DNA of 64,000 nt from Pontiella desulfatans. GTDB taxonomy: Bacteria; Verrucomicrobiota; Kiritimatiellia; Kiritimatiellales; Pontiellaceae. The stretch covers positions 930,001 to 994,000 of the forward strand of contig NZ_CAAHFG010000002.1 of the NCBI RefSeq assembly GCF_900890425.1, in the 5' to 3' direction. The position numbers and the translations under genes are program-made. Below the pieces are notes generated by a model. That model made no database searches. It saw only the letters and a program-made list of their open reading frames with translations, and was not told the DNA's origin. Position 1 is the stretch's first letter. Every line of letters starts with the position of its first letter. Positions 29,650-55,964 of this stretch are shown here, one piece after another.

Positions 29650-30738
29650 ATGAAGAAGTGGTGTGTATGGTTTGGTTTGTTGGGCGTGGCGTTTGCCGCC
29701 TGGGCGGTGGAGTGCACGATCGATTGTGAAAAGGACGGGGATCATGTTTCGGTTTCCTTGGCCTGGAACGAATCGCCTACCATGGGCTACACGCTGAAGG
29801 GTCGGCCAAGCCTTGCGTTGGGGGACTGGCTCGACCTGACCGCCCAAATCGTGGATGCCGGGCAGTTCCAGACCAACCTTCCCGGTTTGCAATATTTCTT
29901 CCGGGTCGACGATTATCTGCTTTCCGCGCCATCGGACGGTATGATGATGGTTGTTTCGGGAACCAATAGCGGAACGGATCCCGACTTCGGTGCCTATGCC
30001 CTTTCGGTGGATCGGTTCTGGATCGATTCAACCGAGATCACCAAGGAAAAGTGGGACGTCGTTGCGCAGTGGGGGGCTGATCATGGATATAAGATTTCCA
30101 CGGCCGATGGCACGTCCAAGACCAATGGGCACCCGGTGGTGCAGATCACCTATGTCGAAAGCATTCTCTACTGCAATGCCCGTAGCGAGATGGAAGGACT
30201 AACGCCTTGCTATACGGATGGCGGCGGGGCTGTTTTCCGGACGTATAACTACATCGACCCCTTCACGGTTGCATGTGATTCCGGAGCCAACGGCTACCGT
30301 CTGCCCACGAACGACGAATGGGAATATGCCGCCCGCGCAGGATTGTCCGGCAAGCGCTTCCCGTGGGGCAACACCATCTCCCATGCCAAGGCCAACTATT
30401 ATGCATGGCACAACAATCCGTTATACCCCTACGACCTGACTGTGACGGGCGATGCAGGACACCACCGTTCGTATTGGTTTAACGGCGATGTCTCGCCCTT
30501 CACTGCGCCTGTTGGGGATCTTCCGGCCAATGCCTGGGGCCTGTACAACATGGCCGGAAACGTGGCGGAGTTCACCAATACGGATGGGGCGTTCACCAAA
30601 ACTTCGACCGCCATCATTCGGGGCGGATCCTACTTCTCGAATCCGGACAAGGTTCGTTGCGGCGATGCATCGGTGACCGCGGGCTGGCTGACGTCCAGCG
30701 AACAGTATGGCTTCCGCACGGTGGTCGGCGCCGACTAG
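29650..30738 (+). CDS. Secreted FGE-sulfatase-fold protein lacking the active-site Cys pair
   Basis: A 362-residue protein with a signal peptide (about 1-19), an N-terminal beta domain (about 20-95) and an FGE/SUMF1-fold domain (about 96-362): SVDRFWIDSTEITKEKWDVV, GYRLPTNDEWEYAARAG, KRFPWGN, NAWGLYNMAGNVAEF, and RGGSYFSNPDKVRCGDAS. True formylglycine-generating enzymes have two copper-binding Cys just after RGGS; here that stretch has only one Cys, six residues later than expected. The fold is widely reused in PVC bacteria for other functions, so it is probably not the maturase of the nearby sulfatases. Anaerobes normally mature sulfatases with radical SAM anSME instead. Confidence 0.85.
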   Translation: MKKWCVWFGLLGVAFAAWAVECTIDCEKDGDHVSVSLAWNESPTMGYTLKGRPSLALGDWLDLTAQIVDAGQFQTNLPGLQYFFRVDDYLLSAPSDGMMMVVSGTNSGTDPDFGAYALSVDRFWIDSTEITKEKWDVVAQWGADHGYKISTADGTSKTNGHPVVQITYVESILYCNARSEMEGLTPCYTDGGGAVFRTYNYIDPFTVACDSGANGYRLPTNDEWEYAARAGLSGKRFPWGNTISHAKANYYAWHNNPLYPYDLTVTGDAGHHRSYWFNGDVSPFTAPVGDLPANAWGLYNMAGNVAEFTNTDGAFTKTSTAIIRGGSYFSNPDKVRCGDASVTAGWLTSSEQYGFRTVVGAD

Positions 30739-45556: not shown

Positions 45557-46939
45557 CTACAGCAGATCCAGCGGGCTGCCGCTGGACAAACCCGGCCGGT
45601 TGAGTACGTGGGTGTAGATCATCGTGGTCGAAACATCCGCATGGCCCAGCAGTTCCTGCACCGTGCGGATGTCGGAGCCGCTTTGCAGTAGATGTGTCGC
45701 AAACGAGTGCCGCAAGGTGTGGCAAGTCACCCGCTTGGCAATTCCCGCCTTTGCCGCCGCTGTCTTGATCGCTTTCTGCAGTCCGTTTTCATTGATGTGG
45801 TGCCGTCTTTTCATTTTCGTCCGGGGATCCTCGCTGATGCGCGTTGCCGGAAAGACATATTGCCACATCCACTCGCGCTCGGCATTCGGATACTTGCGCG
45901 CCACCGGTTCAGGCAGATACACAGACCCAAACCCGGCCTTCAAATCGGCCTCATGCTGCCTTTTCATCAATACCAGATGCTCTTTCAAATCCGCTACCAG
46001 CTTAGCCGGGAGCGGGACGCGGCGATCCTTCCCGCCTTTCCCGTCCACCACCATGATATAGCCGTTTCCAAAATCAATATCCTTAACCCGAAGCCGAACA
46101 CACTCCATCAACCGCAATCCCGCCCCGTACAGCAGTGATGCCATTAGCGCAGTGCGCCCCTGCAGCGCCCCCAAAACCGCACCGGTTTCGTCTCTCGACA
46201 AGACCACGGGCAATCGCCGCTTCCGAACCGGTCGCCGATAGGATCCGAAATCGCCCAGCTCGATTTCCAGCACCTGGCCATAAAGGAAAACCAGCGCATT
46301 CAGAGCCTGCGCCTGGGTCGAAGGCGCCACCAGCCGCACGAGTGCCAGATATTCAAGATATTCGGGAACCCTCGCTCCATCCGCCGGGAAGCATCCGCCG
46401 CAAAACCGCGCAAAACGCTTCGCCCACTCCACATAGGCCTGCTCCGTGCGAATCGACATGCCCCGCACCCGTACGACCTGCTTAATCCGCTCCACCTGCT
46501 CCATCGCCTTGGAATCCAGCCCGTTGCTAGGCTGGGGTTCAGGCGCGGGTTTTGCCGGGGGGTCTTCCCGCGCAAGGGTCGGGTGCGTTGGCTCCAGATC
46601 CTCGCAAGCCGAGAGCCGCCCTTCCCAGTCGTAGGCCGCCGGCCAGTCCAGTTCCGTCATTTCCAGAAACAGGATTCTGAGTGCGTAAATGACTTGGCGC
46701 AACTGCCAGACCTTAAAACCGGGCGTTCTGCCTAACACATCGAGATAGGAATCGAGATAGGCAGAAGACACAGCGTTCAGTTTAAGCCCGTCCAGCCCAT
46801 AAACGAACTCCTGCGCACGCCGCACATGCCACTCAGCATTTCGGCCGGAGACCCCGTATTTGGCGAGCTTCTCGGCATACTTGCCCCAGAACACCTGCTC
46901 TTTGCCCGACATTTTTCTTTTCACATGCTCTTTAGCCAT
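45557..46939 (-). CDS. intI: Integron integrase with extra N-terminal domain
   Basis: A 460-residue tyrosine recombinase. Catalytic residues: Arg276 ([13 protein letters not shown]), His407-x-x-Arg410 ([15 protein letters not shown]), His433 (GHADVSTT), Tyr442 (IYTH). The IntI-specific insert lies before these, [16 protein letters not shown] (about 366-381), and the end [10 protein letters not shown] is typical of IntI. Usual integrases have about 320-340 residues; here about 125 extra N-terminal residues form a helical segment that looks like another SAM-like core-binding domain (about 15-100), linked by a Pro-rich stretch to the normal one (about 147-225). The gene lies divergent to its cassettes. 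It inserts and excises cassettes at attI and attC. Confidence 0.95.
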
Positions 46940-50814: not shown

Positions 50815-51828
50815 ATGCCAAGGAAACCAAGAGTCGAGTATGCGGGTGCGATCTACCACGTGATGAGCCGGGGGAACCGGGGCGATCCAATCTACCGGGA
50901 CGGCAGGGACTGCGAAACGTTTTTGGATACGCTGGACGAGGCGTGTGGCCGCACGGGGTGGCGGATACACGCCTTTGTTTTGATGGGGAACCATTACCAC
51001 CTGTTGCTGGAGACGCCGGAGGCGAACCTGGTGGCGGGGATGAAGTGGCTGCAGGGGACGTATACCCAGCGTTTCAATGCACGACATAAGCTTTGGGGGC
51101 ATTTGCTGCAGGGGCGTTACAAGGCGATACCGGTTGACCGGGACGCAGGCGGGGGGTATTTCCCGACGGTGGCGAACTACATCCACCTGAACCCGGTGCG
51201 CACCAAGGTTTTTGACCTGGGGCAGGAAAAGCTGGTGGATTATCGATGGAGTAGCTATCCGCTCTATCTGCGCCCGTCCAAAAGGCCGGAATGGTTGGTG
51301 GTGGACCGGGTGCTCGGGGCGCTGGGAGCCGGGGACGACCGTGCGGGTCGCGAGTGGTACCGGAAGCACATGCAGAAGCGGGTGCTGGAAATTGCGGGGA
51401 ACGATACCCCCCGCGAATCCGATCCGGCATGGGATAAGATCCGGCGGGGATGGTTTTTCGGGTCGGACGACTTCCGGCGGGAGTTGATGGTGCGAATTGA
51501 TGATGGCTTGAAGGGGAAACGGGCATCGTCGTTCAGCGGGGAGGCCATACGGGAGCACAACGAGGCGGAAGCGGATAAGCTGATCGTGCAAGGATTAGGA
51601 AAACTCGGGGTGCTGCCTGGACAGCTGGAAGGCATGCGTAAGGGCGCGCCGGCCAAGATGGCTTTGGCCTGGTTGGTGAAAAAAAAGACCGTGGTGAGGA
51701 ATGAATGGATAAGTGAACGCCTCTCCTGCGGACACCCCGCAAATATTCCGGGCTACGTCCGGCGGGTTGAATTGGCGGATGGCGGGCAGTTGGCTGAACT
51801 CAAGGAAATACTTAAATCCGAGGACTGA
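50815..51828 (+). CDS. rayt: REP-associated tyrosine transposase (RAYT, Y1 HUH)
   Basis: A 337-residue protein. YAGAIYHVMSRGNRG opens the Y1 transposase domain, GNHYHLLLETP gives the HUH pair His60/His62, and GTYTQRFN has the candidate nucleophile Tyr85. The extra C-terminus (about 180-337) contains a helix-turn-helix-like segment (WISERLSCGHPANIPGYVRR) found in PVC transposases. The stop codon and the preceding codons for KSED lie in an inverted REP copy. RAYT proteins nick REP hairpins and may spread them; this one is intact and flanked by its REP family. Confidence 0.92.
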   Translation: MPRKPRVEYAGAIYHVMSRGNRGDPIYRDGRDCETFLDTLDEACGRTGWRIHAFVLMGNHYHLLLETPEANLVAGMKWLQGTYTQRFNARHKLWGHLLQGRYKAIPVDRDAGGGYFPTVANYIHLNPVRTKVFDLGQEKLVDYRWSSYPLYLRPSKRPEWLVVDRVLGALGAGDDRAGREWYRKHMQKRVLEIAGNDTPRESDPAWDKIRRGWFFGSDDFRRELMVRIDDGLKGKRASSFSGEAIREHNEAEADKLIVQGLGKLGVLPGQLEGMRKGAPAKMALAWLVKKKTVVRNEWISERLSCGHPANIPGYVRRVELADGGQLAELKEILKSED

Positions 51829-52011: not shown

Positions 52012-54699
52012 ATGAAGAAAGCGATGCTGTTGGGATTGATGTGTACTCTGGCCATGGGGTCGTATGCCGTGCCGCTTGAGAATGCCGGCAGTGCCGTCCC
52101 GTCGCTGAATGTGCTAACGGGCTTTGATACGACCGAAGCCTTCCAGCAGGTGGTCAAGAACAAGCCCGGAGTCAACCAGACTGCGATGGGGCAGGTTTTC
52201 ACGCTGGGCACGGGGGCTTTCGAGCTGTCGGCTCTGTACTTGAAATCTTATACTAGTGAGGATTTGTCCAACTATTCGGGAACACTGGAACTCAAGATTT
52301 TTTCGGGAACCGGCGGAGCGCCTCTGCAGACGTTTGCCTACGAGTTCGGAACCGGCTCGGTTGCCAAGGGCGACTGGATCAAGCTCGACCTCGGTGGATA
52401 TGCGTTGCCTTCGGGTGGGCAGTATTCCTTCCTAGTCTACACTCCAACGGCGGATGCTGATCATGACTGGGGATTCTGGAAGTCCAAGAACAATGAATAC
52501 GGCACCACCGGTGATCACGGGCTGTACGTCTCCGCCAACGATTACACCAGCGTCTGGAATTCATCCAACCCCTGGATAAACGTCGCGCATCGTGCCGATA
52601 GCGACGACCACGCCTTTTTTCTGACCGGATCGGATGGAAGCGGCGGAGGGGTCGACAGTCCCGATACGCCGGCCGGTGTTGCGGCGCTGGCGGGCAATGG
52701 GCTGGTCAGCCTGAGCTGGGATGCCAACACCCAGGCCGGCTTCGGCCATTTTGTGGTCAAGCGCTCGACCATTTCCGGAGGCTCCTACACCGCGCTGCCC
52801 GGAGCCGTTCCCGTCACCGACCATTTCATCGACACGAACGTGGTTAACGGAACCACCTATTATTATGTGGTGTCCGCCGTGAACACCGAAGACGTGGAAT
52901 CGCCCAACTCCGTCGAGGTGTCCGCTACGCCGAACGGCTCCATCGCCCGCCCGAATATTTTTGTGATTTACATCGACGACCAGGATCCCTCCTACGGCTG
53001 CTACGACGGTGCCTTCGGCATCAGCCACGACGCCGCGCTCACCCACACCCCGAATATCGACACGCTGGCCGCCGCCGGTGTTCGCTACGACCGCGCCTAC
53101 GTCGTCAACCCCGTCTGTTCTCCGTCGCACACCTCGCTCTTCACCGGCAACCACGTCACCACCCTCGGTTGCCCGCACCACAAGAGCCACTACATTGACG
53201 AGCTGCCCGAAGGCCACGGCTCGCTGCCGGAGCTGCTGCGGGATGCGGGCTACTATACCGTCAACCTCAGCAACGGCGACATACGCTGGGGCGCGTCCGG
53301 CAAGATCGACACCAACTATGAGCGTCCACCGATCATGAACCCGGTCGAAGGCGACGACCCCTGGCAGTTCGACGCCATCCACGGGTTCGATTTCACGGGG
53401 CCGGCCACCGCACCATCTTGCGATCCCACCACCATCTTCATGGGCGGCAACTGGACAAACCGCCTTGCGGGGCAGCCCTTCTTTGCCTGGGCGAACATCG
53501 AAACCGGCAAGGCGCATGGCTTCGGCACCGGCACCACCTGGGCGCAGGCCAACGGCGTTGCGGTCGATCCGGACGATATCATGCTGCCCCCGTACCTCGT
53601 CGATGCGCCGATCGCCGACTGGAAGGATTATGTTGCCAAATCGCTGAACTCCATTTCATGCACGGACTATGTGGTCGGGCAATTTCTCCAGGGATTGGAA
53701 CTTGCCGGAGAAGCTGAAAACACACTGGTGATCCTCGCCTCCGATCATGGGCGTGCCACCATGCGCCATAAGCAGTGGCTTTATGAAACCGGTATTCACG
53801 TGCCGATGATTATCCGCTGGCCGGGCGAGGTCGCCCCCGGTTCCGTTGAAACCAACCTCACGAGCATCATCGACATTGCCGCCACCTGCGTCGGCGCGGC
53901 CGGCGCAATCCGCCCGCCGAAAATGGAAGGGCTCGACCTGATGGGCGACGACCTTGCATCACGCGTCCACGTATTCGCCTCGCGCGACGGGGTCGACGGC
54001 ACCTTCGACCGCTCGCGCACGGTGGTGGGGCACCGCTACAAATACATCCGCAACTTCTACCCGGAGCTGCCCTACATCAACGGTAGCTATGCCACCAGCA
54101 AGCTCGACGGGCGCGGCATGCAGGACGACCTCAACCTGCTGACGACCGAACAGCGCCGCTTCCTTGAAGACCACAAGGATGCGGAGGAGTTCTACGACCT
54201 GCAGGCCGATCCGTTCGAGGTCAACAACCTGGCGGCCGATCCCGCCCATGCAGACAAGGTGGCCGAATACCGCCAGCTCCTGGCCGAGTGGATGGAGTCC
54301 ACCGGCGACTACGCCCCCGACGCCCACGTGACACTCGGCGGTATTGCTGCGGTAACCAGTGTGCAGACGCTGCTGAACGAATACGCGATCCTTAATGCGG
54401 ATGCCGACGGCGATGGGCTGAGCTATTACCACGAGCTGGCGTTGGATCTTGATCCGAATGTGATGGATGCGTCAATGGCCACCTCCTATGTCATCAACGC
54501 TTTCCAGGAAATGGACTACACCGTGCGCAACCTGCGCGACGGGGTCTCGTACCAGGTTCAGGTTTCAACCAACCTGGTCGATTGGCAGGTTTACACGAAC
54601 TTACCGGGCGACAGTGCCGGAAGCCCGACGACTCTCACGCTTCCGGCCAGCATCGCTGCTGGCGGAAAACTGTTTGTTCGGATGGTGATTCCGCAGTAG
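52012..54699 (+). CDS. Multi-domain secreted sulfatase with non-canonical CSPSH motif
   Basis: An 895-residue protein with a signal peptide (about 1-20). Domains: module B (about 25-210; NYSGTLELKIFSGTGGAP, HDWGFWKSKNNEYG), a fibronectin type III domain (about 218-308), and a sulfatase domain (about 312-770). PNIFVIYIDDQDPSYGCYDG holds the first metal Asp pair. The formylglycine motif is CSPSHTSLFTG with Cys369 but His373 in place of the nearly invariant Arg. ASDHGRATMRHKQWLYETG is the second metal region. A DADGDGLSYYHELALDLDPN calcium-type repeat and beta domain end the protein. It may be active on an unusual substrate, or poorly matured; cannot be decided from sequence. Confidence 0.9.
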   Translation: MKKAMLLGLMCTLAMGSYAVPLENAGSAVPSLNVLTGFDTTEAFQQVVKNKPGVNQTAMGQVFTLGTGAFELSALYLKSYTSEDLSNYSGTLELKIFSGTGGAPLQTFAYEFGTGSVAKGDWIKLDLGGYALPSGGQYSFLVYTPTADADHDWGFWKSKNNEYGTTGDHGLYVSANDYTSVWNSSNPWINVAHRADSDDHAFFLTGSDGSGGGVDSPDTPAGVAALAGNGLVSLSWDANTQAGFGHFVVKRSTISGGSYTALPGAVPVTDHFIDTNVVNGTTYYYVVSAVNTEDVESPNSVEVSATPNGSIARPNIFVIYIDDQDPSYGCYDGAFGISHDAALTHTPNIDTLAAAGVRYDRAYVVNPVCSPSHTSLFTGNHVTTLGCPHHKSHYIDELPEGHGSLPELLRDAGYYTVNLSNGDIRWGASGKIDTNYERPPIMNPVEGDDPWQFDAIHGFDFTGPATAPSCDPTTIFMGGNWTNRLAGQPFFAWANIETGKAHGFGTGTTWAQANGVAVDPDDIMLPPYLVDAPIADWKDYVAKSLNSISCTDYVVGQFLQGLELAGEAENTLVILASDHGRATMRHKQWLYETGIHVPMIIRWPGEVAPGSVETNLTSIIDIAATCVGAAGAIRPPKMEGLDLMGDDLASRVHVFASRDGVDGTFDRSRTVVGHRYKYIRNFYPELPYINGSYATSKLDGRGMQDDLNLLTTEQRRFLEDHKDAEEFYDLQADPFEVNNLAADPAHADKVAEYRQLLAEWMESTGDYAPDAHVTLGGIAAVTSVQTLLNEYAILNADADGDGLSYYHELALDLDPNVMDASMATSYVINAFQEMDYTVRNLRDGVSYQVQVSTNLVDWQVYTNLPGDSAGSPTTLTLPASIAAGGKLFVRMVIPQ

Positions 54700-54755
54700 A
54701 TGGTTTCTGCTTTTTAATGAGTGTTCTTCTGCTTTGGGTTGGATAGGTTGTGCGT

Positions 54756-55964
54756 ATGAAACTGTTGCATTCAATGTTGTTGGTGGCCGTGTGCGGTCTG
54801 TTGGTTTCCTGTTCAACTAACTGTCCGGTTGAGGTGGTCGAAACAAAATCCGAAACGTCGGGACTGGTGCATCCCGGCATCCTGCAGTCCAAGGCAATGC
54901 TCGATGTCATGAAGCGGGATATCGAACAGGGGCATGAGCTGCGCACGGCGGCCTGGAACGACATGCGCAAACATCCGCGCGGTAAGCTGGGGTGGTTTGG
55001 CGATCCATGGAAAGCCCCGGAGGAAATCCTTGGTGCCGATAACCTGCATTTCAAAACCGCCGCCGCCATTGCCAACAGCCATGCGCTGCAATGGATCGTG
55101 ACGGGCGATGTTTCGAAAGCGCAAAAGGCAATCAAGGTCATCAACCACTGGTCGACCACGCTGAAGTCGATCCGCCCGGAGCCGGACGACGAGCATCTGC
55201 ATACGCGGCTGATCATGGGTGTGCACAGCGGCTACTGGGCGCAGGCCGGCGAGCTTCTGCGCCATTCCGGTGCGCCGTGGCCGGAGGCGGAGCAGAAGCA
55301 GTTTGAAAACTGGTTGCGTGAAGTGATCCTGCCCGCGATGGAGCCGCGCCCGAATACCTTTAACGGCAACTGGGATGCCGCCTGTACCTGGAGCACGATG
55401 GCCATCGCGGTCTTCCTCGACGACCGGGCGTTGTTCGTCGAAAATATCGAGCGGCTGAAGTCCGGCGACACCAATGCGCGGCTGACCCACTACCTGCTGC
55501 CCAGCGGCCAGTGCCAGGAAACCGGGCGCGACCAGGATCATGCCCAGATGGGTCTCGATTTCCTTGCCCGCGCCTGCGAGATCGCGTGGAACCAGGGCAT
55601 CGACCTCTATGATTTCGAGGATGTGTCCATTGGGCGTTCCGTTGAATACCTTTCGAAATACAACCTCGGCCACGACGATGTGCCGTTCGAGGTTTATCCG
55701 TCGCCGGTTGGGGAGGGGAATGCGCACGACGCGGCCACGGCGCCTTCCGATAAATACCGAGGGCGCTTCCGTCCGCTCTACGAGCTGGTGTACCACCACT
55801 ACCACTACCACGACCGCAAAGGGCAGGAGATGCCCTTCACCCGGCAGGTGCTGGAGCAGACGCGCATCGAAAATCCCGGCTACTATTGCGACTACTGGAA
55901 CACCCTCTGCTTCGGGGAGTTGGATGATGCCTCGGGAAAGCCTTGTAAAACCGATGGAGATTGA
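54756..55964 (+). CDS. Alginate-lyase-superfamily lipoprotein (PL5/PL38-like)
   Basis: A 402-residue lipoprotein (LLVSCST lipobox, about residue 20); ATG 54756 is preferred over a GTG six bases upstream. The rest is an alpha-barrel with HFKTAAAIANSHALQWIVTG, NTFNGNWDAACTWSTMAIAV and QETGRDQDHAQMGLDFLARA, motifs of the alginate_lyase (PF05426) superfamily; the Asn, His and Tyr candidates are in NFNGNW-like and RDQDHAQ. It likely degrades a uronate polymer by beta-elimination in the periplasm. Linked to the sulfatase upstream by a 56-base gap. Confidence 0.82.
   Translation: MKLLHSMLLVAVCGLLVSCSTNCPVEVVETKSETSGLVHPGILQSKAMLDVMKRDIEQGHELRTAAWNDMRKHPRGKLGWFGDPWKAPEEILGADNLHFKTAAAIANSHALQWIVTGDVSKAQKAIKVINHWSTTLKSIRPEPDDEHLHTRLIMGVHSGYWAQAGELLRHSGAPWPEAEQKQFENWLREVILPAMEPRPNTFNGNWDAACTWSTMAIAVFLDDRALFVENIERLKSGDTNARLTHYLLPSGQCQETGRDQDHAQMGLDFLARACEIAWNQGIDLYDFEDVSIGRSVEYLSKYNLGHDDVPFEVYPSPVGEGNAHDAATAPSDKYRGRFRPLYELVYHHYHYHDRKGQEMPFTRQVLEQTRIENPGYYCDYWNTLCFGELDDASGKPCKTDGD

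Follow-up and report, generated by a model that had tools for sequence, protein, structure and literature searches.

The window analysed here, 64,000 nucleotides of the Pontiella desulfatans genome, carries a sulfatase gene in which histidine stands where the formylglycine signature has its arginine, and the replacement is common to a rare lineage of marine bacterial sulfatases with a sparse distribution. Judging from sequence comparison, the encoded protein is probably an active S1_8-like formylglycine sulfatase that uses His in place of a second-shell Arg, with clade-specific compensation around the site.

Gene architecture and genomic surroundings

The gene and the parts of its product are laid out as follows.

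52012..54699, + strand: His-type S1_8-like sulfatase gene, ATG-to-stop open frame of 895 aa plus stop, with PF00884 and SGSH_C
52012..52650, + strand: signal-peptide-like start at aa 1-19 (judged by eye), plus an N-terminal module reaching aa 213
52690..52908, + strand: fibronectin type III-like domain, aa 227-299 (PF00041, E 0.0032, under the curated cut-off)
52948..54312, + strand: sulfatase domain, aa 313-767 (PF00884, PDB matches, structure model)
54313..54696, + strand: C-terminal extension, aa 768-895, kept in two Pontiellaceae orthologues and matching no Pfam family

The PF00884 (Sulfatase) match spans aa 314-632 with 112.7 bits against a cut-off of 25 and runs through the entire Pfam profile (1-301 of 301), a whole-domain match of the kind by which S1 formylglycine sulfatases are recognised. 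SGSH_C is matched in part in Pfam, while NCBIfam yields sub-cut-off matches only, to arylsulfatase-type models, and PDB 3mpc is matched over aa 214-303. The N-terminal module is absent from the two closest orthologues, whose matches start at aa 214, and other genes of the genus Pontiella match it. A PEP-CTERM-like separate protein (L081:1005-1769), encoded two genes upstream of the sulfatase orthologue in P. sulfatireligans, is about 52% identical to this module. The sequence comparison thus makes a module swap or fusion likely.

Three neighbouring genes bear on the history of the locus.

45560-46939, - strand: possible integrase (by eye)
50815-51825: IS200-like Y1 transposase gene (PF01797), immediately upstream of the sulfatase gene
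54750-55961: alginate-lyase-family gene, next after the sulfatase

The transposase and the possible integrase suggest local rearrangement, and because the surroundings of the window gene differ from those of its orthologues, relocation appears likely. In Flavobacteriaceae, the His-type gene of Lutibacter and Maribacter lies alongside GH29 fucosidase (PF01120), GH28 (PF00295) and sulfatase genes, and in Flavicella it adjoins GH28 and sulfatase genes, so that GH28 is present in all three and GH29 in two of them. Such gene content points to a locus acting on a glycan that carries sulfate and fucose, and perhaps uronate.

A histidine lineage and its active site

The initial annotation had read CSPSH in place of CxPSR, and this reading stands: C369-S-P-S-H373 lies in the intact frame 52012-54699 (+), within the interval first flagged (53100-53130), and is followed directly by T-S-L-F-T-G. 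The Cys and Pro of the [C/S]-x-[P/A]-x-R signature are present and the Arg is missing. The importance that the annotation gave to this Arg is likewise supported by published work, as it is conserved in 99% of 4,058 FGly-sulfatases (PMC5066984) and the corresponding Arg74 of sulfamidase is a buried residue that bonds FGly70 and is salt-bridged to Asp31 and Asp273 (PMC4014121), thereby contacting both formylglycine and Ca-binding Asp residues. The eleven exceptions in that survey comprise one Lys, one Gln and nine Ile or Leu, with no His; the nine Ile/Leu proteins were taken as possibly inactive and the Arg was called essential (PMC5066984). The survey was built on 2009 sequences, so His cases may since have reached the databases; a partial literature search found no published description of His at this position.

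The rarity of the replacement was assessed with a DNA pattern for C-x-[PA]-[ST]-H-x-x-[LIMF]-x-[ST]-G and a reversed control. The pattern occurs once in the own genome (8.66 Mb, 6 contigs; 150 sulfatases scored among 555 candidates), in the window gene itself; with Arg (or Ser AGY) at +4 instead, the otherwise identical pattern gives 375 matches, against 15 in the reversed control. Across 43 genomes of the order, the only sulfatase matches are the window gene itself and the orthologues from G019 and G028; the remaining matches are roughly as many as the reversed control gives and, judged by eye, appear unrelated. The fetched loci contain 97 distinct motif contexts of sulfatases: Arg is found in 89 and His in eight, and all eight fall in a single lineage.

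Homologues were sought in the order, phylum, class and GTDB contigs, which yielded seven His-type proteins beyond the window protein. The nearest named carriers are P. sulfatireligans F21 (73% identity) and Pontiellaceae bacterium B12227 (71%), figures that also bound the catalytic-domain identity to these two orthologues (71-73%), followed by a Kiritimatiellia MAG (L077, the same as L084; 49%), the Akkermansiaceae MAG UBA7890 (49%) and the Flavobacteriaceae Lutibacter oricola, Flavicella sediminum and Maribacter vaceletii (44-45%). The comparison of homologues that had been proposed as a check finds CS[P/V]SH in all eight lineage members (CSPSH in six, CSVSH in two) and Arg throughout the 45 Arg-type homologues aligned. 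An active family with His as a common residue had been named as what would overturn the first reading; His is indeed fixed, in a small clade only. The eight proteins group together, with support 100/100, a single state change and a stem of 1.04, in a tree built from 53 S1_8-like domains, where a group of 17 Arg-type proteins (94/90) adjoins them; the tree is midpoint-rooted, and the word clade assumes a root outside the group. Furthermore, 397 Flavobacteriaceae genomes drawn contain the His-type sulfatase in the three known carriers only. A distribution scattered over such distant lineages suggests horizontal transfer. A single-protein search of the genome contig collection and a search of the viral contig collection returned no relatives of the window sulfatase, and plasmid matches reach at most 34% identity among the matches listed.

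The positions that matter for the active site are listed below.

52975..52980, + strand: Ca-ligand pair D322-D323, invariant in eight
53116..53130, + strand: CSPSH signature (TGT TCT CCG TCG CAC), C369 (formylglycine precursor) to H373 (for Arg)
53269..53301, + strand: clade-specific stretch SNGDIRWGASG (aa 420-430) right before the catalytic Lys, largely a gap in Arg-type rows
53302..53310, + strand: K431-x-D433, counterpart of sulfamidase Lys123-x-His125, invariant in eight
53509..53517, + strand: K500-x-H502, sulfate-binding/catalytic acid position and clade-specific His, both invariant in eight
53743..53748, + strand: Ca-ligand pair D578-H579, invariant in eight
53770..53772, + strand: sulfate-binding K587, invariant in eight

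Apart from the signature, the domain had been described as complete, which agrees with our finding of the Ca-ligand and catalytic Lys/His positions of S1 sulfatases (D322, D323, D578, H579, K431, K500/H502, K587) together with C369; these and D433 are invariant in all eight His-type proteins. D433 occupies the sulfamidase His125 position, where Arg-type relatives from bacteria also have Asp, in KTD or KDD, and opposite the catalytic-acid His of S1_8A stands K500 in the MAFFT alignment and H502 in the phmmer alignment. The residues that all His-type proteins share but few of the 45 Arg-type rows have include H373, Y394, N418, S420, G427, A428, G479, E497, T498, H502, W510 and G660, and T374 also marks the group (seven of eight) and is rare among the same rows. 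Y394 and G660 sit where most Arg-type rows carry Arg, and within the SNGDIRWGASG stretch S420, G422, G427 and A428 are invariant in all eight. These group-specific residues are candidates, by alignment, for compensation or specificity.

The comparison of His-type and Arg-type rows found no clear single-residue substitute for the Arg. R425 (in DIRW) was rejected as a compensating Arg, being present at that position in the three Pontiellaceae and not in the other His-type proteins, as was R438, which occurs in seven of the eight His-type proteins only. A loss of the catalytic Lys within the SNGDIRW stretch was also dismissed, as the homologues show GA[ST][GA]K[TI]D.

Maturation, mechanism and rival explanations

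Two general maturases are encoded in the window genome: one anSME above the cut-off and, among 20 PF03781 matches, a canonical FGE (L105, G000:C3:409313-410167), which reads RGGSYLCHDSYCNR and has its catalytic Cys pair in RGGSYLCHDSYC. Published counts for P. desulfatans F1 are 521 sulfatase genes, 20 FGE-domain genes and one anSME (PMC6388578). As a separate observation, a canonical FGE accompanies anSME in the window genome and two relatives (L105, L107, L108), organisms described as strict anaerobes; FGE is thought to need oxygen (PMC6388578). The Akkermansiaceae carrier has an anSME, as the Pontiella carriers do, and in Maribacter a canonical FGE (FLCSDSYC) is present without any anSME match. 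The draft assemblies of Lutibacter and Flavicella contain no anSME over the cut-off and no Cys-pair FGE among the matches found. The best FGE homologues in Lutibacter oricola (L110, G602:C16:113437-114207; RGGSFMFDEALENSY) and Flavicella sediminum (L111, G604:C12:1205205-1205969; RGGAFMFDQALEKSF) keep most of the signature and miss both Cu-binding Cys.

The initial annotation had also raised the possibility that the protein is differently matured, and a dedicated or variant maturase recognising CSxSH would fit two of these observations, namely the state of Lutibacter and Flavicella and the FGE-like gene that immediately precedes the His-type sulfatase gene in P. sulfatireligans F21 and B12227.

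29650-30735 in the window; L081:1858-2940; L082:1893-2975: exported FGE-like (PF03781) protein, 55-63% identical among three genomes

However, both Cys of the RGGS-x-x-C-x-x-x-x-C pair are missing in all three FGE-like proteins, which sets them apart from FGE and leaves the neighbour no credible maturase, and the gene lies 21 kb off in the window and does not adjoin the His-type gene in Flavobacteriaceae. Moreover, maturases missing from two genomes would affect every sulfatase there and not the His-type alone; PF00884 matches number 55-139 per Flavobacteriaceae carrier genome (84 in Lutibacter oricola, 139 in Flavicella sediminum). Carriers with an anSME (Pontiella, Akkermansiaceae) and without one over the cut-off (Flavobacteriaceae) differ in their maturases, so the lineage is not tied to one maturase type. 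We therefore discard the FGE-like gene as a dedicated maturase for CSPSH, find no dedicated maturase and no positive support for different maturation, and regard special maturation as very improbable.

Our preferred reading, that of an active sulfatase, involves an exported S1_8-type carbohydrate sulfatase working with His at the signature Arg position. It is favoured by the best structural matches, which are active S1_8 sulfatases, and by the abundance of sulfatases in the carrier genomes. Cys369 would be converted to formylglycine by a general cell maturase, either anSME or canonical FGE, and the FGly-Ca site together with K431, K500 or H502, and K587 would cleave sulfate via the usual covalent route. 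His373 may partly stand in for the second-shell Arg in its contacts with FGly and the Asp residues that bind Ca, with T374, Y394, the insert before K431, H502 and G660 as likely compensation that may also tune specificity. If S1_8 precedent holds, the enzyme would act on a terminal sugar and remove a 2-O- or N-sulfate (PMC12549532, PMC10154612), and the Flavobacteriaceae neighbourhood points to a sulfated fucose-containing glycan. More tentatively, and short of what we would call probable, the Arg of CxPxR may be dispensable for both formylglycine formation and turnover, the His373 imidazole and clade residues substituting for it and altering pH dependence or substrate.

Against an active enzyme stand the disease mutation R74H in human sulfamidase, the description of FGE as recognising CxPxR (PMC4505483) and the failure to find a substitute residue for the Arg. 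R74C and R74H both lead to early-onset disease (PMC4014121), R74H in Sanfilippo A, a severe disorder of childhood. R74H destroys the function of human sulfamidase and so would favour a pseudoenzyme, a lineage no longer active as a sulfatase whose protein persists by binding glycans or in a structural role, as would the view of the Arg as essential and of Ile/Leu replacements as likely inactive (PMC5066984) and the long stem branch (1.04); conserved catalytic residues, too, may reflect binding without turnover. Nevertheless, some loss would be expected in a pseudoenzyme, whereas the nucleophile, the Ca ligands and the other catalytic positions are invariant in eight proteins down to 44% identity. 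The gene also evolves under purifying selection, with a dN/dS of about 0.07-0.17 in close pairs of His-type genes (Nei-Gojobori), a rough estimate given dS of at least 1.5 in these pairs and saturated dS between groups, and it remains with degradation genes in the conserved Flavobacteriaceae neighbourhood. These observations make the inactive protein that the initial annotation had offered as one option unlikely. An error in sequencing or assembly, or gene decay, could in principle produce His373 by a single CGC to CAC transition, yet His recurs in eight separate genomes with two codons in use (CAC in four genes, CAT in four), intact frames and low dN/dS, which refutes error and pseudogene alike and leaves this explanation a negligible probability.

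Activity on another chemistry or substrate class, such as a phosphate or phosphonate ester, or catalysis by the unmodified Cys, might account for Y394 and G660 in place of the usual Arg and for H502 and the insert before K431 around the site. Promiscuity is established for the alkaline phosphatase superfamily. Phosphatase activity is on record for one CxPxR sulfatase (PMC8746622). On the other hand, the gene lies among sulfatase and glycan-degradation genes, its product has a sulfatase-type Ca site, and the phosphonate hydrolase BcPMH retains its Arg (PMC4014121), so we consider such a change of chemistry quite unlikely. The protein may be substrate-shifted, the remaining option of the initial annotation, as the clade has a fixed residue set of its own around the site.

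Comparison with known S1_8 sulfatases

The Arg of CxPxR serves the recognition of sulfatases in databases and explains some patient mutations in human enzymes, and signature-based annotation would miss His-type sulfatases. A natural, conserved His lineage in S1_8 makes it testable whether the Arg is needed for maturation, catalysis or both, and which residues permit its loss. The R74H-type replacement is fixed here in what sequence comparison places as sulfamidase's own subfamily, S1_8, and this parallel is the best ground both for doubting activity and for caring whether the enzyme is active.

The nearest solved structures by sequence are S1_8B (E 4e-66) and S1_8A (E 6e-60). The four best PDB sequences and the top Z rows all belong to S1_8, a placement made through PDB comparison. 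The AlphaFold model, built from a 53-row alignment, has a mean pLDDT of 89.5 and a pTM of 0.92, with the CSPSH motif within a helix and a block pLDDT of about 95. VIA-align gives Z 43.6 for S1_8A (2.4 A, 420 aligned), 42.4 for S1_8C, 39.0 for S1_8B and 38.5 for sulfamidase, a modelled likeness of fold that does not by itself show function.

S1_8A, S1_8B and S1_8C are lambda-carrageenan exo-2-O-sulfatases of Pseudoalteromonas distincta U2A (PDB 9bb9/9bes, 9bbd/9bef and 9bba/9bep; PMC12549532). The window protein shares with them the whole-domain fold (Z 39-44), the Ca site, the catalytic Lys, the K-x-D motif and the C-terminal subdomain, but they have Arg (CSATR, CSTAR) where it has His373, and it is further set apart by the insert preceding K431 and by other residues specific to its clade. 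Similarly, it has the fold, FGly, Ca ligand and Lys positions in common with human N-sulfoglucosamine sulfohydrolase (sulfamidase SGSH; S1_8; PDB 4mhx, 4miv; PMC4014121), whose Arg74 corresponds to His373 and whose His125 corresponds to Asp433. With the Arg-less sulfatases of the SulfAtlas paper (PMC5066984) it shares the missing signature Arg, which in those proteins is Lys, Gln, Ile or Leu and here is His.
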